A stretch of DNA of 64,000 nucleotides from Catellatospora coxensis (lineage in GTDB: Bacteria; Actinomycetota; Actinomycetes; Mycobacteriales; Micromonosporaceae): contig NZ_BONI01000001.1 of the NCBI RefSeq assembly GCF_016862635.1, forward strand, positions 62,001 through 126,000, written 5' to 3'. The position numbers were made by a program, and so were the translations under genes. A model generated the notes under the pieces. That model saw nothing but the letters and a program-made list of their open reading frames with translations. It did no database searches and had not been told where the DNA came from. How positions within the stretch are numbered: position 1 is the first letter of the stretch; every line of letters begins with the position of its first letter. Below, piece by piece: positions 12,058 through 35,678 of this stretch.

Positions 12058-12240
12058 GTGACGTGGGGGATGGCGCGGCCGGCGGACCTGTCCCGGCGGG
12101 CGTGGTCGGTGGACGTCGGGCTGACCCTGACAGGCCGGGACTACCCGAGATCATTCGAGTTGCCCGGCACCTGTGCGAATGTGTCGTCAAGATACGCACA
12201 GGTGCCAGGCAACTCCGATGATCAAGGCTTTACGGCTTGA
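12058..12240 (+). other. Short ORF behind a leaderless-type promoter, running through a palindrome
   Basis: A GTG at 12058 has TAGGCT (12044-12049) eight bases upstream. The 60-codon frame looks ordinary for about 30 codons, then reads through the family C palindrome to a TGA at 12238-12240, overlapping the end of the acylase gene. It may be the 5' end of a gene cut by the repeat, or only a promoter with a chance frame. Confidence 0.25.
12149..12223 (+). repeat. Palindromic repeat family C, copy 1 (75 nt)
   Basis: Runs from GATC to GATC: two 29-nt arms with three mismatches and a 17-nt loop that starts AATG and ends TCAAGATA. Three more copies of exactly 75 nt lie at 26175, 33552 and 35604. 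This one ends seven bases before the stop of the acylase gene, between convergent genes. Confidence 0.9.
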
Positions 12241-14776
12241 GGATCTGCGTGTTCGTCGCTTCCTTCTCGATCGTCGCCTGGGCGAAGCGGAACGGCAGGG
12301 TCTGGCCGGTACGCCACAGTTCGAACTGGTCGGCGTAGTTGTCGTGGAACGCGTGGCCGGAGTTGCCGGTCAGCTGGATCCAGCGGGAGTCGTCCAGGTC
12401 GGCCAGGTTCACGATCATGCGCATGGACGGCACCGCGTCGACCTCGTACCCCTGCCCGGCGCTCCAGCCCGTGGCGTTGACGATCGCGTCGCCGCCGGAG
12501 ACGCCGACGGTGTCCCGGTTGAACAGCCACTCGATCGGGCCGATGCCGGACTCGCCGAACGTCGCGTGGGTCGGGGTGAGGGTGTGCATGTCGCCCCAGC
12601 GCCACTGCTTCGGGTCCTCGCCCTGCGCCTCGGACAGCTCCTGCACCGCCGCCGACATGGCCTGGGCCAGCATGTCGTCCCGCTTCTCGACGGCGGGCGT
12701 GCCCTTGTTGTCCCACCACTTGTCGTCGGGCTTGGCCAGCAGCGCGCGGACCACCTCGAACCAGCGGTCCCCGCCGTCGGCGGCGTAGTCCTCGCCCAGC
12801 TCGTCGAAGGTCAGGCCGAGCAGGTTCTTCCAGACCGCGTTGTAGTACGCGGCCGCGGCCGAGTCCTCGCCCTGCTGGAAGTCCCAGTCGACGAGCAGCG
12901 CGTCGGCGTTCTTCTCGACCTGCGACGGGGCCTGCCGAGGGGCCTTCTGCAGGGCCGGGATCAGCGTCGGGGCGAAGCCGTTGCGGTTGTCGAACTGCTG
13001 CTTCTGCACGTCGTCCAGCGTGATCTTCCCGCCGGCCGCGCCGAGCATGTCGTAGATGCGCTGGCTGCGGTAGCCGTAGCTCCAGTCGTCGGTCAGGTGC
13101 TGCTGGTACTGGTCGCCGATGACGGCCTGGTTGGCGGTGACCACGTAGCCGCGCTCGGGGTTGAGCACGTTCGGCAGCTCGTCGAACGGGATGAAGCCGG
13201 TCCAGTCGTACGCCGGGTCCCAGCCGGGCGCGAACCACTTGCCGTCGCCCTTGCCGCGCACCGGGATACGCCCCGGCGACTGGTAACCGATGTTACCCTC
13301 GACGTCGGCGTAGACGATGTTCTGCGCGGGCACCTCGAACAGCGCGGCCGCGGCCCGGAACTCGTCCCAGTCGCCCGCCTTGTTGATGGCGAACACGGCG
13401 TCGCCGGTGCGGCCCGGGTCGAGCGCGGTCCAGCGCATCGCGATCGCGTACTGCCCGCCGAGCTTCTTCAGGCTCTCGCTGGCGTCCGACAGCAGCGGGC
13501 CGTGCTTGCTGGTGCGCACCGTGATGGTGACGTCGGAGCCACCGGCGACCTTGAGCACCTCCTGGCGCGTGGCCAGCGGCTCCCAGGTCTCGCCGACCTT
13601 CACCTTGTCGCCCTCGACCTGCTCCAGGTACATGTCGATGACGTCGGGGTCGAGGTTGGTGAAGCCCCAGGCGATCTTCGCGTTGTGGCCGATGACCACG
13701 CCGGGCACGCCGGAGAAGGTGAAGCCCGCGACGTCGGTGCCGCACTCGCAGTGCAGGCCCATCTGGTACCAGATGCCGGGCTGGCTCGGGCTCAGGTGCG
13801 GGTCGTTGGCCAGGATCGGCTTGCCGGTGGCGGTCAGCTTGCCGCTGATCACCCACGAGTTGGAGCCGATGCCGTCGCCGTCGGCGTTGCCCATCAGGCC
13901 GGGCAGCCCGGCCAGCGCGTCGGCCATGTCGTTCAGGCCGTCGGCCGCCAGCGCCGCCAGGGGCGTGGCCGGCGGGGGGACCGATGCGGCCGGGGCGGTC
14001 GCCTTGGCGTCGAACGCGCCGTTCACGATCGCGCCGCCGGTGACGATCGGCAGGTTGCGGTCGATCGGGTACGCCGGGTAGAGCTGGTCCACCTGCTCCT
14101 TGCTCAGGCCCTCGGCCTGCAGCGCGGCGCGGCGGATCTCGGCCTCCATGTTGCCGCGCAGGTCCCAGGCCATCGCCTTGAGCCAGGCCAGGCTGTCCAC
14201 CGGCGACCAGCGCTCGATGACGTAGTCGGAGTTCTGCAGGCCGAGGATGCCGTACTCCAGGCTCAGCGCGCCCGACGCGGCGAACCCGTCACCGTCTTTG
14301 TCGGTGTTGGCGGCCAGCCACGCGTTCACGCCCTCGGCGTACGCCTCCAGCCCCTTGCGGGACTCCGGCGTCAGCAGCGCCACCTCCTGCTCGGCGACCC
14401 GGCGCCAGCCCATGGTGCGCAGGTACTTGTCCGTCTCCAGCTGCGACTCGCCGAACAGCTCGGAGACCCGGCCGGCGGTGACGTGGCGGCGGAAGTCCAT
14501 CTCCCAGAACCGGTCCTGGGCGTGCACGAAGCCCTGGGCGCGGTACAGGTCGTCGCTGGTCTTGGCGTAGATCTGGGGGATGCCGTGGCTGTCGCGGCGC
14601 ACGGTCACCGGCGCGGCGAGCCCGGTCAGGGTGAGCTCGCCGTCGAGAGTCGGCAGGGCGCGGCGCACCGACCAGACGGCCAGCCCGGCGACGAGGACGG
14701 CCAGCACCGTCACGACGCCCAGCAGCCAGAACGCGGTCTTACGCAGGCGGCGGAGCCAAAGGCGTGGGGGGTTCAC
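12230..14776 (-). CDS. Penicillin acylase family Ntn-hydrolase (peptidase S45), membrane-anchored
   Basis: 848 aa. One transmembrane helix at about residues 12-36 (TAFWLLGVVTVLAVLVAGLAVW) precedes the alpha-chain region with the family segments VTVRRDSHGIPQIYAKTSDDLYRAQGFVHAQDRFWEMD (quoted in part: HGIPQIYAK, GFVHAQDRFWEMD). The catalytic serine of the beta chain is predicted at Ser305 (GIGSNSWVISG), freed by autocleavage after Gly304. LANDPHL and GVVIGHN follow as expected. Members hydrolyse amide bonds of beta-lactams, acyl-homoserine lactones or lipopeptides; the substrate is unknown. GTG 14776 has TAGACT eight bases upstream. Confidence 0.88.
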   Translation of the reverse strand: MNPPRLWLRRLRKTAFWLLGVVTVLAVLVAGLAVWSVRRALPTLDGELTLTGLAAPVTVRRDSHGIPQIYAKTSDDLYRAQGFVHAQDRFWEMDFRRHVTAGRVSELFGESQLETDKYLRTMGWRRVAEQEVALLTPESRKGLEAYAEGVNAWLAANTDKDGDGFAASGALSLEYGILGLQNSDYVIERWSPVDSLAWLKAMAWDLRGNMEAEIRRAALQAEGLSKEQVDQLYPAYPIDRNLPIVTGGAIVNGAFDAKATAPAASVPPPATPLAALAADGLNDMADALAGLPGLMGNADGDGIGSNSWVISGKLTATGKPILANDPHLSPSQPGIWYQMGLHCECGTDVAGFTFSGVPGVVIGHNAKIAWGFTNLDPDVIDMYLEQVEGDKVKVGETWEPLATRQEVLKVAGGSDVTITVRTSKHGPLLSDASESLKKLGGQYAIAMRWTALDPGRTGDAVFAINKAGDWDEFRAAAALFEVPAQNIVYADVEGNIGYQSPGRIPVRGKGDGKWFAPGWDPAYDWTGFIPFDELPNVLNPERGYVVTANQAVIGDQYQQHLTDDWSYGYRSQRIYDMLGAAGGKITLDDVQKQQFDNRNGFAPTLIPALQKAPRQAPSQVEKNADALLVDWDFQQGEDSAAAAYYNAVWKNLLGLTFDELGEDYAADGGDRWFEVVRALLAKPDDKWWDNKGTPAVEKRDDMLAQAMSAAVQELSEAQGEDPKQWRWGDMHTLTPTHATFGESGIGPIEWLFNRDTVGVSGGDAIVNATGWSAGQGYEVDAVPSMRMIVNLADLDDSRWIQLTGNSGHAFHDNYADQFELWRTGQTLPFRFAQATIEKEATNTQILKP

Positions 14777-14784
14777 GTTGGCGG

Positions 14785-14825
14785 AGTCTACGCACATGTT
14801 GTGACCCGCGTTACCACCAGGTAAC
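14785..14825 (-). promoter_or_regulatory. Promoter of the acylase gene with a palindromic operator
   Basis: On the minus strand a -10 TAGACT (14790-14785) lies eight bases before the GTG. The palindrome GTTACC-N4-GGTAAC (14810-14825) covers the expected -35 position, so a repressor site is likely. The regulator is unknown. Confidence 0.45.
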
Positions 14826-14839
14826 ACAGACTTTGCTGG

Positions 14840-17800
14840 TCAGGTGCGCAGTCTTACCTGAGCCGTTCCGGTCGCCCGGTCGTTCGGGTCCACGATCAGC
14901 TGGTACGTCCCGGTCGCCGGCAGCTCGGTGCCCTCCTCGCGCAGCCCGCCCCTGCCGTTGATCACGCAGCCGGACTCGACCACGTCGCCGTCCGGGCCGC
15001 GCAGCTCCAGGCCGCCGCACTGGCTCGGCAGGTCCGTGCTCGGGACCTCGATGAACACCCGCTGCCCGATCCGCCCGGTGAAGGTCAGCACGCCGACCGC
15101 GCCCGGCCGGTCGATCCGGACGGTGACCGCGTCGCCGTCCACCGGAAGGTCGAGCCGTTGGTCCACGGCGAGGACCACGCGCACCTTCGCCTCGCCGACG
15201 TTCGTGTCCCGCGGGTCCACGACCACCGTGTACGTGCCGCCGTCCGGCAGGGTGAAGCCGTCGATGTAGCCGCTGCCGTTGATGACGCAGCCGGAGGTGA
15301 CCTGCTTGCCGTCCGGGCCGAGCAGGTCCAGGCCGCCGCACTGGCTCGGCAGGTTCGTGCTCGGCACGTCCACGAACACCTTCTGCCCGGCCGTCGCGGT
15401 GAAGGTGAACCGGGCGACCGTGCCCGGCTTCGCCAGGCGTGCGGTCAGCTCCGGGCCGTCCGGCGTGATCGCCTCCTGCTGGTCCTCGACGGTCAGCAGG
15501 CGCAGCCGGGCCTCACCGGTGTCGTCGCCCCGCGGATCGACCGTGATGCTGTACGTGCCGGTCTCCGGCAGCACCGTGCCGTCGATGTACCCGGCGCCGT
15601 TGATGACGCAGCCCGACGCCACCTGCTTGCCGTCCGGGCCGAGCAGGTCCAGGCCGCCGCACTGGCTCGGCAGCGTCGTCGCGGGCACGTCCAGGAAGAC
15701 CTTCTGCCCCTTCGTGCCCGCGAACTCGACCTTCGCGACCGCGCCCGGGGCGTCCACCCGCACCGTCCAGGTCTGCCCGCCCAGGTCCGCGCCCCCGGCG
15801 AAGACCTGGCCCGCCTTGGCGGCCACGGCGAAGTCGGGCTGCCCGGTCAGCGCCACGTCCAGCACGCAGCCGGCCAGCACGGCCGGGTCGGAGACGCCCA
15901 GCTCGCGGCAGATCGCCTCGGCCGAGGCCCGGTTCGGCAGCTCGGCGGTGGCCGCGTCCTGCTCCGGGAAGGCGCGGTCGACGTAGCTGTCGGTGGACTT
16001 GCCCGCCGGGTAGGTGAACAGGGACGACGCGGCATCGACGCGCCAGCTGTCGGCGTACGCCGGATAGAGCGCGGCGAACGTCGGCTGCGTGCCCAGCGGC
16101 GTGCCGCCGCGCGGGCGCACGTCGTCGTCGGACTTGCCGTTGAAGTCGCCGAGCAACCCTTCCAGCTTTCCCGCGTACGCCTGCGCGGGCTCGACCGACA
16201 GGGCCAGGCCCCAGATGCCGATCGGATCGATCACCAGGCGGGAGCCGTCCTTCCAGCGCAGCTCGACGTCGCCGTCGGCGTTCGTGCGCACCTCGCCGCC
16301 CCCGGCGAGCCGCCGGGGGGCGGCCAGCTCCGCCGGGGCCGGGCCGGTCGCCACGCCCGCCACCAGCAACTCGACGCCGGCCGTGGTCATCCGGGCCTCG
16401 ACCCGCTCGCCGTCGACCTTCGCCGCGACCGCCGAGTTCACCGCGACCATGCGCGAGCCCGGCACCGGCTCCTGGCGGACCTGGATCTCGTACGCCCCGG
16501 CGGTCTCGCGCACCGCGACGAACTCGCCCGCGGCCTGGAAGTCGTAGCGCAGCCCGTCGATCGTGCGCAGGTGCGGGTCCCCGGTGCTGTGCCCGCAACC
16601 CGCGCCCGTGCAGGCCGGGGGCGGCGGGGGAGCGGTGCAGTCCCCGCTCGGCAGCGGCCGGTCGCCGTAGTGGCTGCGCGCCGGGCGGCCCAGCGCCTCC
16701 CGCAGCCGGTTCTGCGCCCGGGTGGCCATCACCTCGGTCGTCGGGATGCCGCTGCCCGCGCAGTCCTCCCGGCTGTACGTGCCCTGGTTGTGCTGCCAGC
16801 CGTGGTGGAACTCGTGGTAGAGCACGTCGCACGGGTCGGCGTTGCCGCCGCTGCCGAAGTAGGCGTGCCGGTCCTCGGTGTCCCAGAAGACCAGGATGTT
16901 GTTCTTGTCGAGCGCGCCCTCGTGGCTGTCGCCGGGCTGGGCGCGGATGATGCTCACGGTCACCCCGGGCGCCTCCAGCGCGGGCAGGATGCCCGCCGGG
17001 TCGCCGCCGGGCGCGTGCAGGATCGCGCTGCAGGCGGCCCAGGCGTCGGCCAGCTCCGGGTCGGTCACGATGATCTCCGCGTACGCCGGGCGGCCCGGCC
17101 CCGCCACTGCGCCGAGCGCCACCACCAGCGCCAGCACCACCGCCCCGCCGATCCCGGCCACCCCGCCGGACCTGCCGGAGTCCCCGTTCCCGTCCGCTCC
17201 GTCGGACCCGGACCTGCCGGAGTCCGCGGTTCCGTCTCCGGCGCTGGAGCCTGTGCCGCCGGCCGCCGGACCGCCGTCGGGAGCGGGGCCGTCACCCGTC
17301 GCGGCGGCCGCGCGGCCGCGTCTGCGCCGCTTCACCAGGATCACGACGAGCAGCACCACCACCAGCACCGACGCGACGGCCCCGGCGAGGATCGCCCAGT
17401 GCCACCACGGGCGGCCGGCGTCCACCGCTTCGGCCGTGACAACTGCCCCGGCCAGCGGGGCGCAGGCGGCCGGCCCGCTCTCCGGCACGATCGGCACCGC
17501 GTACGTGAACTCCAGCCGCAGCGGCACCCCGGGCTTCACCGGGTACAGCGAGCCGAACGCGCCCGCGCCGGCCGACCAGGTGACGATCTCGATGGCGTGC
17601 CCCGTCGGCCCGATCGGGATGGCGCGCAGCGGCACCTCCGTGCTCGCCCCGGGCTCCAGCGTGTGCAGGCGCTCGGCCAGCACTGCCTCCAGCGATTCCG
17701 CGAACGAGGTCTCCATCGGCAGCGGCGTGACGGTGACGCCGTCCTGCTCCAGCCGGGTCACCGCGAGTGTGCCGTACGCCGAGGTCACCACCTGGCAGGC

Positions 17801-17959
17801 CGCGTCACCCCGGTTGGCCAGCACCAGCACCGTCGCGAGTGGATCATCACCGCGTACGGTCACCGCCAGGTCGCCGGCCGCACGGGCGGGCGTGGCGGGC
17901 AGGAGTACACAAGCGATCGCGGCGGCGCTGAGCAGCGCGCGGCGGAGGGGGTGCGCCAT
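14840..17959 (-). CDS. Large surface protein: HEXXH metallopeptidase-like domain, VWD domain and three C-terminal repeats
   Basis: 1039 aa. In order: a signal peptide (1-28); an extracytoplasmic domain; a transmembrane helix near 190-212 ending in KRRRRGR; a low-complexity Gly/Asp/Ser linker; a second hydrophobic segment ending in PAYA (about 280-305) that resembles an internal signal peptide; a zincin-like segment YHEFHHGWQHN (HEXXH near 383) with a possible third ligand in TTEVMATRAQN; a von Willebrand type D start GDPHLRTIDGLRYDF near 459; and three repeats of about 107 aa marked by LPSQCGGL (near 762, 869 and 975). The name is built from domains; the function is not known. The start has TATCGT seven bases upstream. 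Confidence 0.7.
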   Translation of the reverse strand: MAHPLRRALLSAAAIACVLLPATPARAAGDLAVTVRGDDPLATVLVLANRGDAACQVVTSAYGTLAVTRLEQDGVTVTPLPMETSFAESLEAVLAERLHTLEPGASTEVPLRAIPIGPTGHAIEIVTWSAGAGAFGSLYPVKPGVPLRLEFTYAVPIVPESGPAACAPLAGAVVTAEAVDAGRPWWHWAILAGAVASVLVVVLLVVILVKRRRRGRAAAATGDGPAPDGGPAAGGTGSSAGDGTADSGRSGSDGADGNGDSGRSGGVAGIGGAVVLALVVALGAVAGPGRPAYAEIIVTDPELADAWAACSAILHAPGGDPAGILPALEAPGVTVSIIRAQPGDSHEGALDKNNILVFWDTEDRHAYFGSGGNADPCDVLYHEFHHGWQHNQGTYSREDCAGSGIPTTEVMATRAQNRLREALGRPARSHYGDRPLPSGDCTAPPPPPACTGAGCGHSTGDPHLRTIDGLRYDFQAAGEFVAVRETAGAYEIQVRQEPVPGSRMVAVNSAVAAKVDGERVEARMTTAGVELLVAGVATGPAPAELAAPRRLAGGGEVRTNADGDVELRWKDGSRLVIDPIGIWGLALSVEPAQAYAGKLEGLLGDFNGKSDDDVRPRGGTPLGTQPTFAALYPAYADSWRVDAASSLFTYPAGKSTDSYVDRAFPEQDAATAELPNRASAEAICRELGVSDPAVLAGCVLDVALTGQPDFAVAAKAGQVFAGGADLGGQTWTVRVDAPGAVAKVEFAGTKGQKVFLDVPATTLPSQCGGLDLLGPDGKQVASGCVINGAGYIDGTVLPETGTYSITVDPRGDDTGEARLRLLTVEDQQEAITPDGPELTARLAKPGTVARFTFTATAGQKVFVDVPSTNLPSQCGGLDLLGPDGKQVTSGCVINGSGYIDGFTLPDGGTYTVVVDPRDTNVGEAKVRVVLAVDQRLDLPVDGDAVTVRIDRPGAVGVLTFTGRIGQRVFIEVPSTDLPSQCGGLELRGPDGDVVESGCVINGRGGLREEGTELPATGTYQLIVDPNDRATGTAQVRLRT

Positions 17960-18085
17960 GCGGCACACGATATGGCCTGCGGGCCTCCGCGGTCGGTCGG
18001 GAAGCGGATAGGTGACACGGGCGCATGCGATCTAAGCTCGTGAGCGCCTTTCGGGCATGCCCCCTCATCCCCCAGGAGAACTCCG

Positions 18086-18490
18086 ATGTACCTGCTGAAC
18101 AAGCAGTTCTGGATCGCCAGCGCCGAGCGTGCCATCAAGACCTTCGTGCAGGCCCTGATCGCCGCGTTCGGTGTCGGCCAGGTCAGCGGCGTGGTGGGCG
18201 TGGACGTCGCCGCGATCGACTGGCGCGGCGCGCTGTCGCTGGCCTTCAGCGCCGCGCTGCTGTCGGTGCTCATGTCCGTCGGTTCCGGACCGATCGGCGC
18301 GTCCAACAGCCCCAGCGTGCTCGCCGCCGCCCCCGCCGCCGCGGCCACGGCTCTCGTCGCGGCCGCCGCCGCCAGCCCGGTGCTCGCCCCGGCCGTCGCC
18401 GCCGCCACCGCGGCCACCGAGCCCGCACCCGCCGCCGAGCCCGCCCCGGCCGCCGCCCCGGCGGAGCCCGCGCCCGCCGCAGCAGCCTGA
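18086..18490 (+). CDS. r1t-type phage holin-like small membrane protein
   Basis: 134 aa. Residues 1-70 match the layout of the actinophage r1t holin family: an amphipathic start (NKQFWIASAERAIKTFVQALIAAFG), then IDWRGALSLAFSAALLSVLMSVGSGPIG, giving two transmembrane segments. The tail from about 75 is almost pure Ala/Pro/Glu. Holins open the membrane for endolysin; here there is no other phage gene, so it is an orphan or domesticated copy. ATG 18086 has AGGAGA as ribosome binding site, and TAAGCT (18033-18038) is a likely -10. A strong terminator follows directly. Homologues of this kind occur alone in many actinobacterial chromosomes, as far as I recall. Confidence 0.75.
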   Translation: MYLLNKQFWIASAERAIKTFVQALIAAFGVGQVSGVVGVDVAAIDWRGALSLAFSAALLSVLMSVGSGPIGASNSPSVLAAAPAAAATALVAAAAASPVLAPAVAAATAATEPAPAAEPAPAAAPAEPAPAAAA

Positions 18491-18498
18491 CCGGAACA

Positions 18499-18536
18499 CG
18501 GAAAAAGGCCCCGCCAACCGGCGGGGCCTTTTTCCG
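18499..18536. terminator. Bidirectional intrinsic terminator between holin-like gene and glnA
   Basis: Perfect 17-bp stem CGGAAAAAGGCCCCGCC / GGCGGGGCCTTTTTCCG around an AACC loop. The A5 and T5 runs make it work in both directions between the convergent genes. Confidence 0.9.
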
Positions 18537-18590
18537 TACCGCTTCTCAGCAGTCACTGGGCTTCTGCTTCGACTGCTATCCGCTTCGCTC

Positions 18591-20024
18591 CTAGCAGTCG
18601 AAGTACATCTGGAACTCGTGCGGGGTCGGGCGCAGGCGGACCGGGTCGATCTCGTTGGACCGCTTGTAGTCGACCCAGGTCTCGATCAGGTCGCTGGTGA
18701 AGACGCCACCGGCCTGCAGGTAGTCGTTGTCCTTCTCCAGCGCCGTGAGCACGTCGGCGAGGGAGCCCGGCACCTGGGTGACGTTGGCGACCTCCTCCGG
18801 CGGCAGGTCGTAGAGGTCCTTGTCGATCGGAGCCGGCGGCTCGATCTTGTTGCGGATGCCGTCGAGACCGGCCATCAGCATCGCCGAGAACGCCAGGTAC
18901 GGGTTCGACGACGGGTCGGGGCAGCGGAACTCGATGCGCTTGGCCTTCGCGTTCGTGCCGGTGACCGGGATACGGGTGCACGCGGAGCGGTTGCGCTGCG
19001 AGTACACCAGGTTGACCGGCGCCTCGAAGCCGGGCACGAGGCGCCGGTACGAGTTGATCGACGGGTTGGTGAACGCCAGCAGCGACGGCGCGTGGTGCAG
19101 CAGACCGCCGATGTACCAGCGGGCCATGTCCGACAGGCCGGCGTAGCCGGTCTCGTCGTAGAACAGCGGCTCGCCGCCCAGCCAGAGGCTCTGGTGGGTG
19201 TGCATGCCCGAGCCGTTGTCGCCGAACAGCGGCTTCGGCATGAAGGTCGCGGTCTTGCCCGCGTGCCAGGCGGTGTTCTTGATGACGTACTTGAACAGCT
19301 GCATCTGGTCGCCGGAGGCCAGCAGCGTCGAGAACTTGTAGTTGATCTCGGCCTGGCCGGCGGTGCCCACCTCGTGGTGGCCGCGCTCGACGGTGTAGCC
19401 GAGGTTCACCAGGTTCGTCACCATGGTGTCGCGCAGGTCGGCGTAGTGGTCGGTCGGCGCGACCGGGAAGTAGCCGCCCTTGTAGCCCGGCTTGTAACCG
19501 CGGTTGGCGCTGCCGTCGGCGTTGGTCGTCGCGCCGGTGTTCCACGCGCCCTCGACCGAGTCGATGTGGTAGAACGCCTGGTTGGCCTGGGTGGAGTAGC
19601 GGATCGAGTCGAAGATGTAGAACTCGGCCTCGGCGCCGAAGTACGCGGTGTCCGCGATGCCGCTGGCCGCCAGGTAGGCCTCGGCCTTCTTGGCCACGTT
19701 CCGCGGGTCACGGGAGTACGCCTCGCGCGTGAACGGGTCGTGGATGAAGAAGTTCAGCGCCAGGGTCTTCTGGATGCGGAACGGGTCGACGAACGCGGTG
19801 GTCACGTCCGGCAGCAGCAGCATGTCCGACTCGTGGATCTGCTGGAAGCCGCGGATGGACGAGCCGTCGAAGGCGAGACCGTCGGTGAAGACGCTCGCGT
19901 CGAACGACTGGACCGGCACGGTGAAGAACTGCATCACGCCGGGCAGGTCACAGAAGCGGACGTCGACGAACTTGACGTCTTCGTCCTTGAGGTACCGAAG
20001 CAGTTCCTCGGAATTGGCGAACAA
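18591..20024 (-). CDS. glnA: Type I glutamine synthetase
   Basis: 477 aa. Makes glutamine from glutamate, ammonia and ATP as a dodecamer. Signatures: [12 protein letters not shown] near 49, the ATP-binding block [18 protein letters not shown] near 263, NRSACTRIP, and the adenylylation loop [10 protein letters not shown] with the tyrosine at about 405, the target of GlnE. I chose TTG 20024 because it gives the usual MFAN start and lies five bases from AGGAGG (20035-20030); GTG 20027 is only two bases away from it. The leader region has a GlnR-type box at 20168-20205 and a possible -10 TAGCGT at 20157-20152. It is divergent from the RDD gene. Confidence 0.96.
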
Positions 20025-20167
20025 CACGTCCTCCTGGCACGGATGGTCTGCGGGAGCCTCCCGGCCCCCACTTCAGCACATCTCCGGGGCTGACCTCGGG
20101 AGACGCGGCCGACGGCGCTGCACTGCGTCGGGTGGCCATTGGCTGGTGGCGACGCTAGAACCGTGGC

Positions 20168-20205: not shown

Positions 20206-20284
20206 GTCACCCGTAAACCGGCCGTATGGGCTGGCCGGACAGCTCACCCGGCCGGTGCGGCGGGGCGGACGGTACGCTCGGCGG

Positions 20285-20698: not shown

Positions 20699-22155
20699 GC
20701 GGGTGGAGTGAGGCGGGCCTGGCGGAGGGTGGGGATGGCCAGGCAGAGGGCGGCGGCGACGAGGATCAGCGAGGCGCTGGCGGCGAAGGCGGCGACCGTG
20801 CCCAGCAGGGCCGCGGCGAAGCCCATGACCGCCATCGCCGGCGGCACGATGCCCAGGCTCGCCAGGTTGTTGATCGAGGCGACCCGGCCGCGGTGCGAGT
20901 CGGCGGTGTACGTGTGCGTCAGGCCGCTCAGCAGCACCGCCTGCGGGCCGCCGGCCAGGCCGCCGACCGCGGTGGCGGCGAACGCCCAGCCCGGCGTGGG
21001 GGCGACGGCGATCGCGAACAGCGCGCCGCACTGCACCACCGCGCAGCAGGCCACGATCGCGCCGAGCCGTCCAGTGGGCCGCCACCGCATCATCAGCAGG
21101 TTGCCGCCGACCGAGCCGACACCGAACCCGGCCAGCATCACGCCGATCCCGCCCGCGCCCCAGCCCCGGTCGTCGGCCACGAGAGCCAGGCCCACGTTCA
21201 GCGGCCCGACCGCGCCCAGGTTGACCAGCAGCCCGACCAGGGTCACGGCCCGCAGCAGCCGGTGTCCGAGCAGGTAGCGCAGGCCCTCCCGCACCGCGGC
21301 GCCGATGGGCGCGCGGGCCGGTCCCGATGCCGGCTCGCCGTTCGCGTCCGCACCGCCGCCTTCACGGTCCGCGCCGTCGGGATCTAGAAGGTTTGTGGTC
21401 GCCCCGGCGACGACAACCCTTCTAGATCGCTGGGGATCGGGGGTGGTGGGGTGGACGGACCAGAGGGCAAGGACGGAGATGGCGAAGGTTGCGGCGTTGA
21501 CGAGGCAGGCCAGGGGGAGGCCGCCGAGCGGGAGCAGGAGGCCGCCGAGGGGTGCGCCGACGGTGAGGGCCAGGCGGGCGGTCAGGCCGGACAGGGCGAG
21601 GCCGCCGGTGAGCTGGGCGGGGGACAGCAGCCGGGGCAGCATCGCCCCGGCCGCGGGCAGGAACAGCGCGTCGGCCAGCCCGAAGAGGAGGGCCACCACG
21701 ACGAGCAGGGCGACACTCGGTTGGGCCAGGGCCAGCGCGGCGGTGGCGAGGGCGATCGCGCCGCGGGCGACGTCGCTGCCGATCATGAGCCGGCGGGGGC
21801 CGTACCGGTCCACGATCGCGCCGCCGAACAGCAGCAGCGCGAGGCGGGGCAGCGCGGAGACGGCCAGGACGGCCCCGGCTGCGCCCGGGGAGGCGAGCTG
21901 GACCGCGCTGTAGGACAGCGCGACGTACCAGACCTGGTCGCCGAGGATCGACACCGCTTGGCCGCCGAGGTAGCGCAGGAAGGCAGGCGACCGGTGAGCG
22001 GGCAGGTCGGCCGGGGGCGCGGGGTGCGCCGGGCTGCCGGTGACGCCGCGCTGCCGCGGCGCGACGCCCGGGTCGGGCAGCGCGCGGCCGGCGTCGGGTG
22101 TGCTGGTCGGGGTCGTGGGCACAGCGGAGGTCGGGGCGGGGGCGGCGGCGTTCAT
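20695..22155 (-). CDS. MFS transporter (probable drug/metabolite exporter)
   Basis: 486 aa. After a Pro/Ala-rich N-terminus (1-50) come twelve predicted transmembrane segments in two halves; the MFS loop motif is seen as GGAIVDRYGPRRLMIG between helices 2 and 3. The long central loop between helices 6 and 7 contains a 17-residue stretch encoded by an in-frame palindrome (21381-21428). ATG 22155 shares its A with the TGA of the upstream winged-helix gene, so the two are co-translated. Pairing with a regulator whose operator overlaps the promoter points to an inducible exporter; the substrate is unknown. Confidence 0.85.
   Translation of the reverse strand: MNAAAPAPTSAVPTTPTSTPDAGRALPDPGVAPRQRGVTGSPAHPAPPADLPAHRSPAFLRYLGGQAVSILGDQVWYVALSYSAVQLASPGAAGAVLAVSALPRLALLLFGGAIVDRYGPRRLMIGSDVARGAIALATAALALAQPSVALLVVVALLFGLADALFLPAAGAMLPRLLSPAQLTGGLALSGLTARLALTVGAPLGGLLLPLGGLPLACLVNAATFAISVLALWSVHPTTPDPQRSRRVVVAGATTNLLDPDGADREGGGADANGEPASGPARAPIGAAVREGLRYLLGHRLLRAVTLVGLLVNLGAVGPLNVGLALVADDRGWGAGGIGVMLAGFGVGSVGGNLLMMRWRPTGRLGAIVACCAVVQCGALFAIAVAPTPGWAFAATAVGGLAGGPQAVLLSGLTHTYTADSHRGRVASINNLASLGIVPPAMAVMGFAAALLGTVAAFAASASLILVAAALCLAIPTLRQARLTPPA
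21381..21428. repeat. 48-nt palindrome inside the MFS coding region
   Basis: Perfect outer arms GATCTAGAAGG / CCTTCTAGATC, then GTTTGT/ACAACC-type pairing and a TCGCC/GGCGA core. It is read in frame as RRVVVAGATTNLL in the central loop of the transporter and includes a CTA leucine codon, rare in this DNA. It looks like an inserted palindromic element. Confidence 0.7.
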
Positions 22156-26174: not shown

Positions 26175-26249
26175 GATCCACCGACGTGCCTGGCAATCGG
26201 GCGTATGAGCAGTCAAGATACGTCCGATTGCCAGGCAAGACGGATGATC
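26175..26249 (+). repeat. Palindromic repeat family C, copy 4 (75 nt)
   Basis: GATC-to-GATC element with 29-nt arms and a loop TATGAGCAG followed by the conserved TCAAGATA. The arm core GGCAATCGG / CCGATTGCC differs from copy 1 (GGCACCTGT / ACAGGTGCC), but both strands changed together. Between two genes on the plus strand. Confidence 0.88.
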
Positions 26250-26864: not shown

Positions 26865-26875
26865 CCGCCGCGCCG

Positions 26876-28804: not shown

Positions 28805-28834
28805 CGCTATGCGTTGTAGAAGGTGCCCTTCCTT
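28785..28834. repeat. Palindromic repeat family A, copy 3, overlapping a gene end
   Basis: The longest arms of the family, 16 bp, with an 18-nt loop whose AACGC-TAT-GCGTT pairs. The left arm is translated as the last codons of the M48 gene, and the loop holds its TAA (28802-28804). It lies between convergent genes. Confidence 0.88.
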
Positions 28835-28843
28835 CGCTCGCGG

Positions 28844-29506
28844 TCAGGTGGCGAGGAGTTTGGGGAGGTGGCGTTCGACGATGGGGAGGACCTCGTCGAT
28901 GGTGACCTCGCGGCCGAGTTCGGCGGACAGGGAGGTGACCGAGGCGTCGGTGATGCCGCAGGGCACGATCCGGTCGAACCAGGTCATGTCGGGGTTGCAG
29001 TTGAGCGCGAAGCCGTGGAGTGAGACGTCGCGGGCGACCCGGATGCCGATCGCGGCGACCTTGCGGTCCGGGCCGCGCTCGTCCTCGCGCACCCATACGC
29101 CGGAGCGGTTGTTGCCCTTGATCCGGGTGGTGGCGACACCCAGCTCGGCGCAGACGTCGATGAGCATCTGCTCGGTACGCCGCACGTGCGCGACCACGTC
29201 GGCGAGCCCGCCACGCTGCTTCGGCAGCTTGATGATCGGGTAGCCGACGAGCTGCCCCGGGCCGTGCCAGGTGATCTTGCCGCCGCGGTCCACGTCCACC
29301 ACCGGGGTGCCGTCGAACGGCCGCTCCCAGGGCTCGGTGAGCTTGCCGGCGGTGTACACGCTGGGGTGCTCCAGCAGCAGCACGGTGTCCGGCTCGGTGC
29401 CCGCGACGACGCCCGCGTGCAGGCGGCGCTGCTCGTCCCAGGCGGTCAGATACTCGACGGTGCCGGCGCGGCGTACCGCGAGTGCCGGCGAGACGATGCT
29501 GGTCAC
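28844..29506 (-). CDS. lipB: Octanoyl-ACP:protein octanoyltransferase
   Basis: 220 aa. Transfers octanoate from acyl carrier protein to lipoyl domains, the step before LipA. Family segments: [12 protein letters not shown], the [17 protein letters not shown] block, [10 protein letters not shown] with the catalytic lysine, and the catalytic cysteine in [17 protein letters not shown] 29506 has TAGCCT seven bases upstream, so leaderless. In this organism it is separated from lipA by the AspRS, LemA and M48 genes. Confidence 0.95.
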
Positions 29507-29617
29507 GTCGCTCAGGCTACTCGCGCCCGCGCGCCTGGCCAGGGAAGGTGCTCGGCGTCACCCGTACCCGTGAATGCGTGCCCGGCTCGCGACCGGTTAG
29601 GGTGTGCGCGAACACGC

Positions 29618-29642
29618 TTGTGAAAACTTTCACGAATAGTGT
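29618..29642 (+). promoter_or_regulatory. Palindromic operator candidate upstream of the MMPL gene
   Basis: GTGAAA-AC-TTTCAC (29620-29633) with near-symmetric flanks, followed by a -10-like TAGTGT (29637-29642). Position suggests repressor control of the MMPL exporter. A further GTGT...ACAC repeat lies just upstream. Confidence 0.4.
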
Positions 29643-29689
29643 CACGCAGTGCCAACCATGCTCCGCACGTAGGGAAAGGACGCCTCGCG

Positions 29690-32017
29690 ATGACGGCGAC
29701 GCGGGAGAAGAAGGAGCTCCGGGCCGCACCGGAGCAGGAGGCGGCCGCCCCGCCGCGGCCGGGGCGGCGGCGCTGGCTGCTGCCGGCGCTCGGGCTCGTG
29801 GTCTGGCTGGTGCTGGGCGGGGCCATGGGCGGCTTCGCGAGCAAGACGGCCGACGTGCAGAAGAACGACAACGCCTCCTTCCTGCCGGCGAGCGCCGAGG
29901 CGACCGTCGTGCTCGACCTGAGCAAGAAGTTCGCCGGGCTCGACGTGGTGCCCGCGCAGCTCGTCTACGGCCGCGACAGCGGGCTCACCGAGGCCGACAA
30001 GACGGCCATCACCGAGCAGCTCGCCAGCATCAAGCGGGAGCTGGGCAGCCGGCTGGCCGACGTGCCGATGCTGCCGCGCTACTCCGACGACGGCAAGGCG
30101 GCCCAGGTCACCGTGCTGTTCACGGAGACCGACGCGCAGAAGAACATGGCCGACGTGACCTGGATCCGCGAGCACACCGGCCTGCCCGACGGGCTGAACG
30201 CCCACGTCGGCGGCCTGGGCGGCATCCTGACCGACATGATGGAGGTCTTCGGCTCCATCGACGGCCTGCTGCTCGGCGTCACCGTCGGCATCATCGGCGT
30301 CATCCTGCTGATCGTGTACCGCAGCCCGATCCTGCCCGTGGTCGTGCTCTTCGGCGCGGGCCTGGCGTTCGCGCTCGCCAACGGCGTGGTCTACCTGCTG
30401 GCCAAGGAGGAGATCATCACGGTCTCCGGGCAGAGCCAGGCCATCCTCGACGTGCTGGTGCTCGGCGCGGCCACCGACTACGCGATGCTGCTGGTCTCCC
30501 GGTTCCGCGAGGAGCTGCGGCACACCGAGAGCCGGTACGACGCGATGCGGGTCGCGCTGCGCGCCTCGTTCGAACCGATCCTGGCCAGCGGCGCGACCGT
30601 CATCCTGGGCCTGCTCTGCCTGCTCGTGTCCGACCTCGCCTCCAACAAGGGCCTCGGCCCCGTCGGCGCGATCGGCATCGCCAGCAGCCTCGCCGTCTCG
30701 CTGACCCTGCTGCCGGCCGTCCTGGCCCTGCTCGGCCGGGTGGCGTTCTGGCCGGTGCGGCCGAAGTTCGGCTCCGCGCCGGTCGAGGAGAAGGGCCTCT
30801 GGGCGAAGGTGTCCGCGCTGGTCGGCCGCCGGGCCCGGCTGGTCTGGATCGGCACCGCGGTGCTGCTGCTGGCCGGCGTCGCGGGCCTGACCAGGCTGGA
30901 CGCCGACGGCATCCCGCAGTCCGAGGGCTTCACCGGCCACCCCGACTCGGTCTCCGCGCAGGAGCTGACCACCGCCCACTTCCCGGGCGGCACCGGCAAC
31001 CCTGCCGAGATCGTGACCCGGGCCGAGAAGCTCGACCAGGTGCTGCTCGCGGTACGCCAGACCAAGGGCGTGGCCGAGGCGGCCCCGTTCACCGGGATGC
31101 CCGCCATGCCGGTGCTGCCGCCGTCCGGCGACGGCCAGACCCCGGCACCGGGCCAGACCCCGGCACCGGGCCAGACCCCCGCACCGGGCCAGACTCCGGC
31201 GGCCGGGGAGACGCCCGCGAGCGGGGCGACGGGCACCGGGCAGGGCACGCCGGCGCCGGTCGCGGTGCCGCCGCTGCCGGAGCCGAAGGTCGTCGACGGC
31301 ATGGCGCGGATCGACGCGACGCTCACCGACCCGGCCGACTCACCGGCCGCGCTGGCGACGGTCGAGCGGCTGCGGGCCGCCGTGCATGCGATCGACGGCG
31401 CGGACGCGAAGGTCGGCGGGTTCAGCGCGATCAACTACGACGTGCAGCACACGTCGCAGCGCGACCGCAACGTGATCATCCCGCTGGTGCTGGGCGTCAT
31501 CTTCCTGATCCTGATGGTGCTGCTGCGCTCGCTGATCGCGCCGCTGCTGCTCATCGCGACGGTGGTGCTGTCCTACCTGGCCACGCTGGGCATCTCCGGG
31601 GTCGTGTTCAAGGACCTGCTGGGCTTCCCCGGAGCCGACTCGTCGTACCCGCTGTTCGCGTTCGTGTTCCTGGTGGCGCTGGGCGTCGACTACAACATCT
31701 TCCTGATGACCCGGGTGCGCGAGGAGGCCGCCAAGCTCGGCCACACACCAGGCACGCTGAAGGGCCTGGCGGTGACCGGCGGTGTCATCACCTCCGCGGG
31801 TGTGGTGCTCGCGGCGACGTTCGCGGCGCTCGCGGTGCTGCCGCTGGTCTTCGTGGTCGAGATCGCGTTCGCGGTGGCCTTCGGCGTCCTGCTGGACACG
31901 CTGCTCGTGCGCTCGCTGCTGGTGCCGGCGCTGACGGTCGACATCGGCCGGTTCGTCTGGTGGCCGGGCCGGCTCTGGCGCGCCGGCAGCCCCGAGAAGG
32001 GCGTTCACCTGCCGTAA
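29690..32017 (+). CDS. MMPL/RND family transporter
   Basis: 775 aa. Twelve predicted transmembrane helices in two repeats of 1+5, each with a large extracytoplasmic loop after the first helix. The second loop is preceded by a Pro/Gln-rich spacer built of repeated QTPAPG units from an 18-bp tandem repeat (31133-31204). LGAATDYAMLLVSRFREEL and LGVDYNIFLMTRVREE are the paired proton-relay segments with Asp-Tyr. MMPL proteins export lipids or hydrophobic compounds; the substrate is unknown. ATG 29690 follows AGGGAAAGGA; the upstream palindrome suggests a dedicated repressor. Confidence 0.9.
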   Translation: MTATREKKELRAAPEQEAAAPPRPGRRRWLLPALGLVVWLVLGGAMGGFASKTADVQKNDNASFLPASAEATVVLDLSKKFAGLDVVPAQLVYGRDSGLTEADKTAITEQLASIKRELGSRLADVPMLPRYSDDGKAAQVTVLFTETDAQKNMADVTWIREHTGLPDGLNAHVGGLGGILTDMMEVFGSIDGLLLGVTVGIIGVILLIVYRSPILPVVVLFGAGLAFALANGVVYLLAKEEIITVSGQSQAILDVLVLGAATDYAMLLVSRFREELRHTESRYDAMRVALRASFEPILASGATVILGLLCLLVSDLASNKGLGPVGAIGIASSLAVSLTLLPAVLALLGRVAFWPVRPKFGSAPVEEKGLWAKVSALVGRRARLVWIGTAVLLLAGVAGLTRLDADGIPQSEGFTGHPDSVSAQELTTAHFPGGTGNPAEIVTRAEKLDQVLLAVRQTKGVAEAAPFTGMPAMPVLPPSGDGQTPAPGQTPAPGQTPAPGQTPAAGETPASGATGTGQGTPAPVAVPPLPEPKVVDGMARIDATLTDPADSPAALATVERLRAAVHAIDGADAKVGGFSAINYDVQHTSQRDRNVIIPLVLGVIFLILMVLLRSLIAPLLLIATVVLSYLATLGISGVVFKDLLGFPGADSSYPLFAFVFLVALGVDYNIFLMTRVREEAAKLGHTPGTLKGLAVTGGVITSAGVVLAATFAALAVLPLVFVVEIAFAVAFGVLLDTLLVRSLLVPALTVDIGRFVWWPGRLWRAGSPEKGVHLP
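31133..31204 (+). repeat. 18-bp tandem repeat, four units, within the MMPL gene
   Basis: Units of GGCCAGACCCCGGCACCG at 31133, 31151, 31169 and 31187, the last ones with changes. They encode a PAPGQT spacer. In frame, so copy number can vary without frameshift. Confidence 0.85.
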
Positions 32018-32035
32018 CAGCCCCGGGGTGGGGGT

Positions 32036-32076
32036 GAAGCGCACCTTCGGCCGATCGTCGGCCGGAGGTGCGCTTC
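32036..32076. terminator. Strong hairpin after the MMPL gene
   Basis: Outer arms GAAGCGCACCT / AGGTGCGCTTC and inner arms CGGCCGA-TCG-TCGGCCG, 18 bp paired. No T-run; likely a terminator or transcript 3' end. Confidence 0.6.
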
Positions 32077-32134
32077 CGCGTTTCGGCACCGGCGGGGGCA
32101 GGTGACGGCGGGAGGCGGTGCGTAAGGTGACGCC

Positions 32135-33514
32135 GTGTCGCTGACCACCATGGCACCCGCCGCCGAGAACCTGTCCGAGCCGCCCGCGCGGCGGCGTCCA
32201 CCCTGGACGTCGGTCGTGGAGACGCTGCTCATCGTGGCCGGGCTGGCCCGCCTGGTCTGGGGCCAGCAGGTCGCGGTCGTCGCCGACGGCCAGGACCGGC
32301 TCGCCAGCCTGAGCCTGCTGCTCGGCGAGGGCCGCCTGAACAACAGCGAGTACTCCATCGTCGGCCCGCTGTTCTCCGCCCCGCTGTGGCTGCTGGGCCG
32401 GGCCGTGGCCACGCCCGAGGCCGGGATCAGGTACTTCAACCTGGTCGTCTTCACCGCCGGGCTGGCCGCGCTCGGGCTGCTGCTGCGCGGGCTGGTCCCC
32501 GGCGCGCTGATCCGCCGGTTCATGCTGATCACGATCGCGGCGAGCATGCTCGCGCCGGACGTCGGCCACTACGGCAGCGAGACCTTCACCATGATGGGCG
32601 TCATGGTCGGCATCGTCGTCGTGGTCCGTGGGCGGCGGCGCGGCTGGGGCTGGGCGGCGGCGGTGCTCGGCGCGGTCAACACCCCGGCGACGGTGGCCGG
32701 GCTCGGGCTGGTGAGCCTCGCCGAGACCTGGCGGCACCGGCGGCTGCGGCTGCTGGTCCCGGTGGCGGTCGCCGCGGCGCTGGTGCTGGTGGAGATCCTG
32801 GCCCGCAAGGGCGGGTACGCCGGGGACCGCGGCGCGAGGGACGTCATGCCGTTCTCCGGGCGGCCCGGGTTCTCGTACCCCGTCTTCTTCGGCGTGCTGG
32901 CGATCCTGTTCTCGTTCGGCCGCGGCCTCGTCTGGTACCTGCCCGGCATGTTCCTGCCGACCCGCCGCGCGCTGGCCGACCTGGGCCCGACCGGCATCGA
33001 CCTGGCCCGGATCCAGCGGCTCTGGCTGATCTTCGTCGGCGGCCTGGTGCTGGTGTACGCCCCCTGGTGGGCCTGGTACGCCGGGATGTCCTGGGGGCCG
33101 CGCTTCTTCCTCGCCGGCATCCTGCCCGCCGCGCTGGCGCTCGCCCTGCGCCTGGGCCACCGCCAGGCCGGGCTCGGCGCGAACCTGGTCACGCTGGCCG
33201 TCCTGGTGCTCTCGGTCTGGATCGGCCTGAACAGCCTGTTCTGGCACGAGCTGTGGCCCGCCGCCTGCTTCGGCACCCCGCAGTCGGTCGAGGCCCTGTG
33301 CTGGCACTCACCCGAGTACAGCTCGCTGTGGTACCCGCTGGTGTCCTGGCAGTTCGCCCACCTGACCGGCGGGCAGTGGATCAGCGCCGCCTACAGCGCG
33401 GTCGTGCTCGGCTGGCTCGGCACACCCCTGGTGCGCCGGATCGGCGGCCAGCTCACCACCGCCTGGCGCGACCACCTCAACCCGCGTCTGGCCCGTACCG
33501 CCTGGCGCTGGTAG
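32135..33514 (+). CDS. Polytopic membrane protein, function unknown
   Basis: 459 aa with about ten to eleven predicted transmembrane segments. Between the first two lies an extracytoplasmic stretch, VVADGQDRLASLSLLLGEGRLNNSEYSI (in part DGQDRLASL). The general layout, a first loop with acidic residues followed by many helices, recalls GT-C glycosyltransferases, but I see no certain catalytic motif. GTG 32135 has TAAGGT (32123-32128) six bases upstream. It is convergent with another large membrane protein of similar type, across a family C palindrome. Confidence 0.65.
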   Translation: MSLTTMAPAAENLSEPPARRRPPWTSVVETLLIVAGLARLVWGQQVAVVADGQDRLASLSLLLGEGRLNNSEYSIVGPLFSAPLWLLGRAVATPEAGIRYFNLVVFTAGLAALGLLLRGLVPGALIRRFMLITIAASMLAPDVGHYGSETFTMMGVMVGIVVVVRGRRRGWGWAAAVLGAVNTPATVAGLGLVSLAETWRHRRLRLLVPVAVAAALVLVEILARKGGYAGDRGARDVMPFSGRPGFSYPVFFGVLAILFSFGRGLVWYLPGMFLPTRRALADLGPTGIDLARIQRLWLIFVGGLVLVYAPWWAWYAGMSWGPRFFLAGILPAALALALRLGHRQAGLGANLVTLAVLVLSVWIGLNSLFWHELWPAACFGTPQSVEALCWHSPEYSSLWYPLVSWQFAHLTGGQWISAAYSAVVLGWLGTPLVRRIGGQLTTAWRDHLNPRLARTAWRW

Positions 33515-33551
33515 CCCGCGCTTGGTGTGGCGCGGTGCGGTGCCACACCAT

Positions 33552-33626
33552 GATCATTCGACTTGCCAGGCACTTGGGCGAATGGCGCTTCAAGATACGC
33601 ACGGGTGCCAGGCAAGTCGGACGATC
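33552..33626 (+). repeat. Palindromic repeat family C, copy 2 (75 nt)
   Basis: GATC-to-GATC, arms with GACTTGCC / GGCAAGTC, loop AATGGCGCT then TCAAGATA. Copy 1 has GAGTTGCC / GGCAACTC at this position, a paired change. Between convergent genes. Confidence 0.9.
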
Positions 33627-33643
33627 ATGGGCGCGGGCCCGCG

Positions 33644-35521
33644 TCAGGCCGTGGGGACCTTCCAGAGCCAGACGTCGGCGACGCGCTGGGGCGGGCCGAG
33701 GAGGTCGGTCATCACGGACTTCAGGGCGGGCTGGTAGGTGGGCCAGTGGGCGCCGTGCACGTCGTCGCCGAGCACCACGATGCTCGCGTTCCAGTAGCGC
33801 AGGTCCTCGCGCAGCGCGGCCCGGTCGGCGTCGGTGACCGCGGGGGCCGCGCCGGTCTTGGCGACCGTCTCCAGCAGCGTCTGGGTCGGGCGGGGGATCG
33901 GGCCGATGCGACCGGTGCCGTTCGGGCCGCCGGGGCCGAGGAAGAAGCCCGCGGGCAGGCGGAACACGCCCTCGCCCGCGCCTGCCGCGTCGGCCAGGGC
34001 GGCGGCCTGCCAGCGCTGGCCGTCGGGCAGCAGGTCGTTGGTGATCGGCACGGGGACCACGGTGCCGCCGTCGGCGACGTACTCGCGCCACTGGCCGGAG
34101 GCGAAGAAGTCCGGCACGGGGGCGCGCTCGCGGGCCAGCAGCGGGGTGGGGACCAGCGGCAGCAGCGCGACGGTGAGCCCGGCGACCCAGGCCCAGCGCG
34201 GGCCGGGCAGGGACACCTTCATGCTGCCGCCGTCGGTGCGGCTCAGCGCGGTGGCCAGCCAGGCCAGGACCAGCCCGAAGACGGGCGCGACGATCAGCGC
34301 GAGCCGGGACGGCAGCGCCGCGTTGAACACCGGCAGCCCGCCGATCAGCGCCTCGGGCATCGGGATGCCGGTCAGCTGACCCAGCCAGCGCAGCTCGGGG
34401 CCGAGCGAGAGCACGAGGAACACGCCCGCGGTGACGCCGAGGCCGAGCAGGTTGGCCCGGTGCGCCCGGTCGGTGCGCCGCCACAGCACCACCAGCCCGA
34501 TGATCACGAGCAGTAGCAGCGGCAGGCCGAAGAACGAGTTCTCCTCGGTCGGGTTCGCGGCCAGGTCGGTGTTGAGGCCGACCGCGCCGGCCAGCGAGCG
34601 CTCCGGCCAGGCGGCGTACGCGGCGAGGTCCTCGTTGTGGATGCGCGGGTCGAAGCCGGTGCCGTGGTAGCGCTGCGGCCCGGCGAAGTGCAGCCACAGC
34701 GGGTACGCCAGCAGCGCGCCCGCGACGAGCGCGCCGCTGCCCAGCCCGATCAGCACCGGGCGCAGCAGCGCCTTCACCTCGTCACGCCGGAACAGCACCC
34801 AGACCAGCGTGAACACGCCCAGCGCCAGCGCGGTGAAGAACAGCGCCTCGGCGGCGATGGAGAAGCAGACCGCGATGAGCAGGCCCAGCAGCGCGCCGTC
34901 GCGCACGGGCCTGTCCCGGCGCACCAGCAGCAGGCAGCGCGCGATGATCAGTGGGATCACCCACTGCGCGGTCCAGTTCAGGTGGGCGTTCGCGTGGGAG
35001 ATCATCGCCGGGGCGAAACCGCAGAACAGGCCGCCGACGGCCGCGCCGATCCGGTTCGCGCCCAGGTGCCGGGAGAACAGCCAGTACCAGGCGTAGGCGG
35101 TGCCGGCCAGGTTCAGGGTGAGGATGACCAGGAAGGTCAGCGCCGGGCCGGCCAGGATGGTCAGCGGGGCGAAGGCGAACGCGTACACCGAGATCGAGGT
35201 GTTGACCGCCAGGTTCACCCCGTCCGGGACGTTGAGCAGGTGGGTGAAGAGCGGGTCGGCGCCGTGGGTGAGCGCGTACGCGCCGTACGACAGCAGCCAC
35301 TCGAAGAACGCCTGGTCACCGGAGTTGACACCGCTGGCGCGGTGCGCGGGGTCGGACCAGAGCGCGCCGGTGACCCATACCGCCAGGACCAGGGCGGTGG
35401 CCGCGACCAGCAGGTCGGCGCGGCGGCGGCGGGTCCGCACGGCGCCCTCCGCCTGCTCCGGCGTGTCCACGACCTGGTCGTCGGCAGGGCTCAGCGGGGC
35501 GGCAGGCGAGGCGATCGACAC
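33644..35521 (-). CDS. Polytopic membrane protein, probable GT-C type glycosyltransferase
   Basis: 625 aa. About eleven transmembrane segments occupy residues 30-470, and a soluble extracytoplasmic domain covers the last 150. The first loop contains SGVNSGDQAFFEWLLSYG with an acidic pair placed like the catalytic aspartate of GT-C enzymes (polyprenol-sugar dependent). The soluble tail has no motif I know. The start is GTG 35521, with TAAACT seven bases upstream, instead of codons further out. GT-C membership is inferred from topology and the loop only. Confidence 0.65.
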   Translation of the reverse strand: MSIASPAAPLSPADDQVVDTPEQAEGAVRTRRRRADLLVAATALVLAVWVTGALWSDPAHRASGVNSGDQAFFEWLLSYGAYALTHGADPLFTHLLNVPDGVNLAVNTSISVYAFAFAPLTILAGPALTFLVILTLNLAGTAYAWYWLFSRHLGANRIGAAVGGLFCGFAPAMISHANAHLNWTAQWVIPLIIARCLLLVRRDRPVRDGALLGLLIAVCFSIAAEALFFTALALGVFTLVWVLFRRDEVKALLRPVLIGLGSGALVAGALLAYPLWLHFAGPQRYHGTGFDPRIHNEDLAAYAAWPERSLAGAVGLNTDLAANPTEENSFFGLPLLLLVIIGLVVLWRRTDRAHRANLLGLGVTAGVFLVLSLGPELRWLGQLTGIPMPEALIGGLPVFNAALPSRLALIVAPVFGLVLAWLATALSRTDGGSMKVSLPGPRWAWVAGLTVALLPLVPTPLLARERAPVPDFFASGQWREYVADGGTVVPVPITNDLLPDGQRWQAAALADAAGAGEGVFRLPAGFFLGPGGPNGTGRIGPIPRPTQTLLETVAKTGAAPAVTDADRAALREDLRYWNASIVVLGDDVHGAHWPTYQPALKSVMTDLLGPPQRVADVWLWKVPTA

Positions 35522-35603
35522 TCGGCGCAGTTTATCAGCGCGTCCGCCCCGCTCCACCGGCCGCCGGACGGCGTCACACCGCCCCGCGCCCGCCCCGGTC
35601 CAA

Positions 35604-35678
35604 GATCGCTCGACTTGCCAGGCACCAGGGCGAATGGCGCTTCAAGATACGAACATATGCCCGGCAAGTCGGACGATC
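35604..35678 (+). repeat. Palindromic repeat family C, copy 3 (75 nt)
   Basis: Left arm and loop are almost identical to copy 2; the right arm is more diverged (CGAACATATGCCCGG). It lies between divergent genes, so it is not simply a terminator. Confidence 0.88.

Follow-up and report, generated by a model that had tools for sequence, protein, structure and literature searches.

The window analysed here, a stretch of 64,000 nucleotides from Catellatospora coxensis, carries four copies of a hairpin on its forward strand, all measuring exactly 75 nt from one GATC to the other with 29-nt arms around a 17-nt loop, as the original prediction had it. The first copy (12149–12223; arms 12149–12177 and 12195–12223, loop 12178–12194) lies at a convergent junction, with a Metallophos-domain gene on its left and a penicillin amidase gene on its right. 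The second (26175–26249; arms 26175–26203 and 26221–26249, loop 26204–26220) lies between two genes of the same direction, a class II tRNA synthetase gene and then a LemA family gene. The third (33552–33626; arms 33552–33580 and 33598–33626, loop 33581–33597) is again at a convergent junction, and the fourth (35604–35678), with degenerate inner arms, is at a divergent one. The loop end TCAAGATA followed by CG is invariant in all four, as predicted. Four sister hairpins of other lengths, also GATC-anchored and given no strand, were found in the window, i.e., two of 55 nt (3170–3224 and 42489–42543), one of 67 nt (48729–48795) and one of 48 nt (21381–21428). Further long inverted repeats outside the 75-nt family lie at 51907–51958 and 40170–40234.

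The sequence TCAAGATACG (≤1 mismatch) occurs four times in the window versus 0.62 times expected from shuffles, and a longer pattern of the 75-nt element four times versus 0.00 expected. On both strands, all four copies gave a better predicted fold than shuffled sequences did (z −4.5 to −10.8). Given this excess of the pattern and these z values, the four hairpins are not chance occurrences. Across them, 86.2% of the arm cells pair. The expectation that the arms change on both sides held for 6 of the 29 pairs, but not for the copy at 35604, whose inner arms are unpaired (−32.6 kcal/mol on the given strand).

Copy number was determined in the genome of C. coxensis itself (G000) and in G007, and distribution was profiled across a genus sample of 11 Catellatospora genomes and in genomes from outside the genus. 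A covariance model built from the four copies found at least 131 distinct places in G000, one of them a 31-nt partial match (E 0.03); this count was made by eye from at least 150 rows, 19 of which duplicated a place already hit on the opposite strand. The complete chromosome of G007 has 138 copies matching the pattern with ≤2 mismatches (71 and 67 by strand), and the backward-pattern control gave no match there. Among the matches listed for G007, 75-nt copies are sparse at ~4.9–6.8 Mb of contig C1. When 61 genomes were searched with the covariance model, all 11 Catellatospora genomes matched, with at least 79 scored candidates (79/79 matches), and the 50 genomes from outside the genus yielded weak matches only in G022 (n = 1) and G028 (n = 2). 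G028, from a related genus, has a degenerate 75-type hairpin with a different loop, plus one 55-type hairpin. A scan of contigs returned at least 100 stretches, and all 80 stretches with titles were from Catellatospora (80/80), a result from which absence elsewhere is not inferable. Half-sites (≤1 mismatch) number 8 to 260 per genome in 11/11 Catellatospora genomes, and at most two per genome in 139 other Micromonosporaceae genomes (any in 17/139), a level that the backward control also reaches. The loop-arm pattern was detected in one of 396 genomes of the phylum, that of C. coxensis, in a sample with one other genome of the taxonomic family. The 75-nt family is thus restricted to Catellatospora in the samples searched, occurring almost nowhere else. 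No published description of these hairpins was found in the literature searched, a scope with most subscription papers outside it.

The words GATC, CGACTTGCC.GGCA, G.GCG, CAAGATACGC.C, TGCC.GGCAAGTC and GATC are conserved over 122 of the 123 collected copies, and the variable positions are 5–7, 17, 22–24, 30, 32, 34–38, 50, 52–54, 59 and 70–71. Conservation continues past the GATCs, with YCWW before and WWGR after (245/255 copies), so GATC was rejected as the boundary of the element, and the unit is ~83 nt long. The flank bases are unpaired, are majority rather than invariant ones (two-base classes at 81–91% at each flank position) and do not covary (position −1 has 97 pairs versus 97.3 expected). 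Each arm has its own palindrome, TGCCNGGCA, and the centres of the two are 42 bp apart. Two A/T bases follow the hairpin and then mostly G/C, with no U-tract.

Pairing between the arms was evaluated with the 177 of 245 copies left once near-identical ones were removed. It exceeded shuffles at 9:67, 11:65, 17:59, 22:54, 23:53 and 26:50, marginally at 6:70, and did not at 5:71, 7:69, 8:68, 12:64 and 24:52. At variable positions it is weak (17:59 pairs in 81/177 copies, 23:53 in 67/177), and the strongest associations link neighbouring positions within one arm. Within a single clade, the arms do covary, but weakly. On the transcribed strand of 128 tandem copies, G.U mismatches hardly outnumber A.C mismatches (165 versus 145), so an RNA mismatch signature is absent.

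Several fixed-length, GATC-anchored hairpin families are present in Catellatospora, of 48, 55, 61, 62, 67 and 75 nt. In 1.93 Mb from five related species (orthologues included), we detected 369 strong inverted repeats, at 17–20 per 100 kb, and 127 of them have an aligned GATC on both arms, versus 69 for the next palindromic tetramer. The GATC-anchored repeats are mostly of 67 nt (n = 27), 75 nt (n = 26), 55 nt (n = 23) and 61 nt (n = 22), followed by 48 nt (n = 6), 62 nt (n = 5) and 85 nt (n = 4, the 67-nt type with longer arms), with other lengths at ≤3 each. In 60 kb of G028 there were two strong inverted repeats, neither GATC-anchored. General over-use of GATC was rejected (observed/expected 0.99–1.00 in coding and 1.15–1.23 in intergenic sequence). 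Dam-type methylation as a candidate reason for the GATCs fits the genomes incompletely: a D12 methyltransferase has a strong match in 8/11 Catellatospora genomes, a weak one in G008 and G009 and none in G005, whereas GATC elements are in all 11, including G005. A Dam-like D12 adenine methyltransferase gene on contig C17 of G000 (L435, 1432–2394) scores below the NCBIfam dam cut-off.

To profile the genomic context of the 75-nt element, 195 copies were placed relative to genes called with our own codon-usage caller, i.e., 69 of the ~130 in G000, 26 of the 138 in G007 and 100 from named contigs, a sample that is mostly high-scoring and includes orthologues. The junctions were convergent (n = 73), tandem (n = 98) or divergent (n = 15), and the remaining copies lay inside a called gene (n = 3) or at contig edges (n = 6); as a background, 17% of intergenic bases are convergent, 53% tandem and 30% divergent. 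Among the tandem copies, 85 are nearer the upstream stop and 13 nearer the next start; adding those 85 to the convergent copies gives 158 of the 195. The 75-nt copies are thus biased towards gene 3′ ends, as are those of the 61- and 67-nt sister families and, less so, those of the 55-nt family. The loop points the same way as the tandem genes in 50 cases and the opposite way in 48; the shared orientation noticed for the four window copies therefore does not extend to the family. The earlier view that a plain terminator role does not fit, which was based on those four copies, is unsupported because 158/195 copies are at such positions, in either loop orientation.

A stable hairpin at the gene 3′ end, as in an intrinsic terminator, is indicated by the predicted fold and the junction counts. 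PMC8355165 describes U trails as often absent in M. tuberculosis and Streptomyces, and a title among that paper's references has the mycobacterial polymerase requiring a U-tract. Convergent junctions without the element had a hairpin of ≥13/14 pairs in 134/237 cases, and convergent gaps of 40–200 nt without it had another hairpin in 114/163. With the element, a second hairpin was present at 0/16 convergent junctions (1/16 at 11/12 pairs), although these junctions offer little space for one and include several orthologues. Tandem junctions showed no such exclusion in a test that merged hairpins within 60 nt (another hairpin at 3/22 with the element and 101/848 without). The 3′-end bias could also reflect mere tolerance of insertions.

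Comparison of orthologous sites revealed how copies are kept and lost. All eight testable copies are shared between G002 and G007, a ninth G002 copy having no syntenic flank, and six of nine G003 copies are shared with G010, one with a 6-base deletion. Of the three G003 copies missing from G010, one leaves half an element there and one is present in G000, so these two look like losses; the third is absent from G010, and one G010 copy is absent from G003. The seven presence/absence sites compared have imprecise gaps, including one half-deleted copy, and show no clean excision or target duplication, though their flanks have diverged. The G000 site orthologous to position 49572 of G010, first scored as empty, held a degenerate copy with a reversed loop, so such labels can miss degenerate copies. 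No element is present at the junction of copy 33552 in G001, G002, G003, G007 and G010. Copy 35604 was found at the orthologous junction in none of the ten relatives; alignment around this junction is good for five of them (G001, G003, G004, G006 and G010).

Orthologues change little at conserved positions. In 13 intact pairs, 6/533 conserved, 9/169 intermediate and 38/273 variable positions had changed and no gap fell inside the element, a low-change result favoured by the scan, which picked intact pairs and left out the pair with the 6-base deletion. Their flanking intergenic positions had 112/1309 changes and 161 gap columns, some being end effects of the fixed window. Four more distant G000/G003 pairs changed more at conserved positions, with 6/164, 12/52 and 16/84 changes at conserved, intermediate and variable positions, respectively.

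The loop has inverted over evolution. In 109 orthologue pairs from 52 loci (111 were found and two same-locus rows dropped), 20 pairs, from 11 loci, have loops that face opposite ways; where flank identity is ≥94%, this applies to 3/16 loci. Nine pairs at six loci qualify as inversions in place under a simple rule, which asks for a better direct match of the outer arms together with a better inverted match of the loop. Two of these loci, that of copy 26175 (L337 versus G000, G003 and G010) and L020/L317, pass with a wide margin on both parts, whereas the margin is narrow on one or both parts at the other four (a single base of 24 for copy 33552); at the remaining reversed loci, the symmetry of the outer arms prevents a call. 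Orthologues of copy 26175 have the same loop orientation in G003 and G010 and the reverse one in C. sichuanensis (L337) and C. bangladeshensis (L307), and in the L011/L307 pair of this locus the outer arms lean the opposite way by one base. The junction orthologous to that of copy 33552 has a reversed loop in G004 and G006. In the 86 unreversed pairs, two-sided changes of a stem pair numbered 125 versus 101 ± 7 in shuffles.

The arms have also changed in concert between two clades, including at orthologous sites, with the loop fixed. In the second clade (51 copies assigned by us, mostly from G005, G008 and G009), the consensus arms are CAAGTTGCC/GGCAACTTG instead of CGACTTGCC/GGCAAGTCG, with ATC/GAT at 22–24/52–54 and G/C at 17/59. 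The consensus sequences of the clades differ at 9/67, 11/65, 17/59 and 22–24/52–54, and the loop CAAGATACGC is the same in both. Fourteen of 15 cross-clade orthologue pairs (eight distinct second-clade copies) have the features of their own clade at most positions, with single-position exceptions; in the fifteenth, the copy from C. methionotrophica, a species put in the second clade provisionally, is of the first type. Such change at orthologous sites is not explained by vertical inheritance alone. In a test of gene conversion between copies as a possible source of the concerted change, 11/27 close orthologue pairs were farther apart than some non-orthologous copy and the differences were overdispersed (variance/mean 2.86), both in a small sequence space. 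Template switching between inverted repeats, described in PMC8604942 for yeast genes and, with the same outcomes, in PMC8794818 for RNA genes, homogenises arms and inverts spacers. The 75-nt element likewise shows loop inversion and arm homogenisation; unlike in the published spacer inversion, this recurs across scattered copies of a single family whose loop sequence is conserved in both orientations.

The insensitivity to loop direction, the lack of an RNA mismatch signature, the constraint and the 3′-end placement favour an orientation-independent 3′-end element. We give about an even chance to the fuller reading that this is a genus-specific, dispersed, REPIN-like hairpin that lies mainly at gene 3′ ends, serves as a two-sided 3′-end element independent of orientation, is mostly vertically inherited and evolves in concert. 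The element would work on both sides whichever way its loop points, and would mostly be inherited with its site and lost through ordinary deletion. Its arms would change symmetrically across the family around a fixed loop, and template switching between the arms during replication, which we infer as the cause, would invert the loop in place and help to homogenise them. Most likely, the hairpin would terminate or block transcription without the help of a U-tract. Like intrinsic terminators that lack a U-tract, it is a strong hairpin that follows stop codons or separates convergent genes, with no T-run after it; it differs from them in its conserved arm and loop sequence, fixed length, high copy number and confinement to one genus in the samples searched. 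Conserved arms and loop are not needed for termination, which argues against a pure terminator, and the divergent copies (15/195) and the tandem copies nearer the next start (13/98) argue against the terminator or barrier reading, as do the weak pairing at variable positions, the lack of a U-tract and the tandem junctions that show no exclusion of a second hairpin.

A selfish REPIN- or MITE-like population, spread by a putative transposase that would recognise the whole 75-nt unit and tolerated at gene ends, is a distinctly less probable account. It would suit the many copies across the genus, the several parallel fixed-length families and clade-specific types, the presence of copy 35604 in no relative compared, and the half-sites (≤3 mismatches, 1.93 Mb), 86/104 of which sit in a paired unit; of the 18 unpaired ones, 11 are in called genes with 3 mismatches. 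The RAYT link offered by the original prediction was rejected, as Y1_Tnp (RAYT-type) matches are present in 6/11 Catellatospora genomes and missing from 5/11, and 0/9 Y1 loci have a GATC-anchored inverted repeat within ~1.1 kb. The sole Y1 transposase match in G000 (L061, contig C10) has an in-frame TAA. No transposase that would explain the spread of the copies was found in this analysis, and the absence of clean excision or target duplication at the seven diverged sites, the copies common to G002 and G007, the small change at conserved positions and the lack of any demonstrated gain weigh against such a population. REPs are by definition of the GTAG/GGAG type, and the halves of the 75-nt element contain none. 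It further differs from REP–RAYT systems in having no flanking Y1_Tnp gene, in the 5/11 genomes without a match, in a conserved loop that reverses and in its several parallel families. The predicted kinship with dispersed REP or REPIN elements was borne out by additional copies in this genome and in related ones: as in REPINs and REP-BIMEs, there are many short extragenic palindromic units, arranged as inverted doublets in which two half-sites form a hairpin. Going by PMC3116915, REPINs are the nearest named kind.

Somewhat less probable still is a role as a DNA-level site, in duplex or cruciform form, to which a putative nucleoid or barrier protein would bind, co-evolving with the arms and accepting the loop either way. 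Gyrase-binding BIMEs are comparable DNA-level protein-binding elements. The two arm palindromes at their 42-bp spacing, the conserved flanks without covariation, the indifference to strand, the missing mismatch signature and the symmetric, family-wide arm change around a fixed loop are all consistent with such a site. Covariation between the arms of one copy is unexpected for independent half-sites, though template switching could produce it, and our search for candidate proteins covered the D12 methyltransferase only. A strand-specific structured or regulatory RNA, as also proposed originally, is very improbable despite the strong predicted fold, conserved loop and some covariation, because gene-end placement holds in either loop orientation (50/48 relative to tandem genes), loops reverse at orthologous sites, G.U hardly exceeds A.C and Rfam gave no match above the gathering score in the whole window.

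Alongside the favoured reading of an orientation-independent 3′-end element, we tentatively suggest, as a proposition with more doubt than belief attached, that the fixed-length GATC-anchored hairpin families may form a new class of DNA-level chromosome element. Their conserved loops would face either way, and a trans-acting factor specific to Catellatospora, co-evolving with the arms across the genome, would keep them at gene 3′ ends as two-sided barriers to transcription or supercoils. Since template switching can generate covariation, a covarying hairpin is not in itself a sign of selection on RNA structure. The family raises the question of how arms change in concert throughout, at orthologous sites and with no recognisable transposase. 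Its numerous similar copies in each genome, across 11 species, make it a natural set for tracking arm homogenisation and loop inversion site by site.
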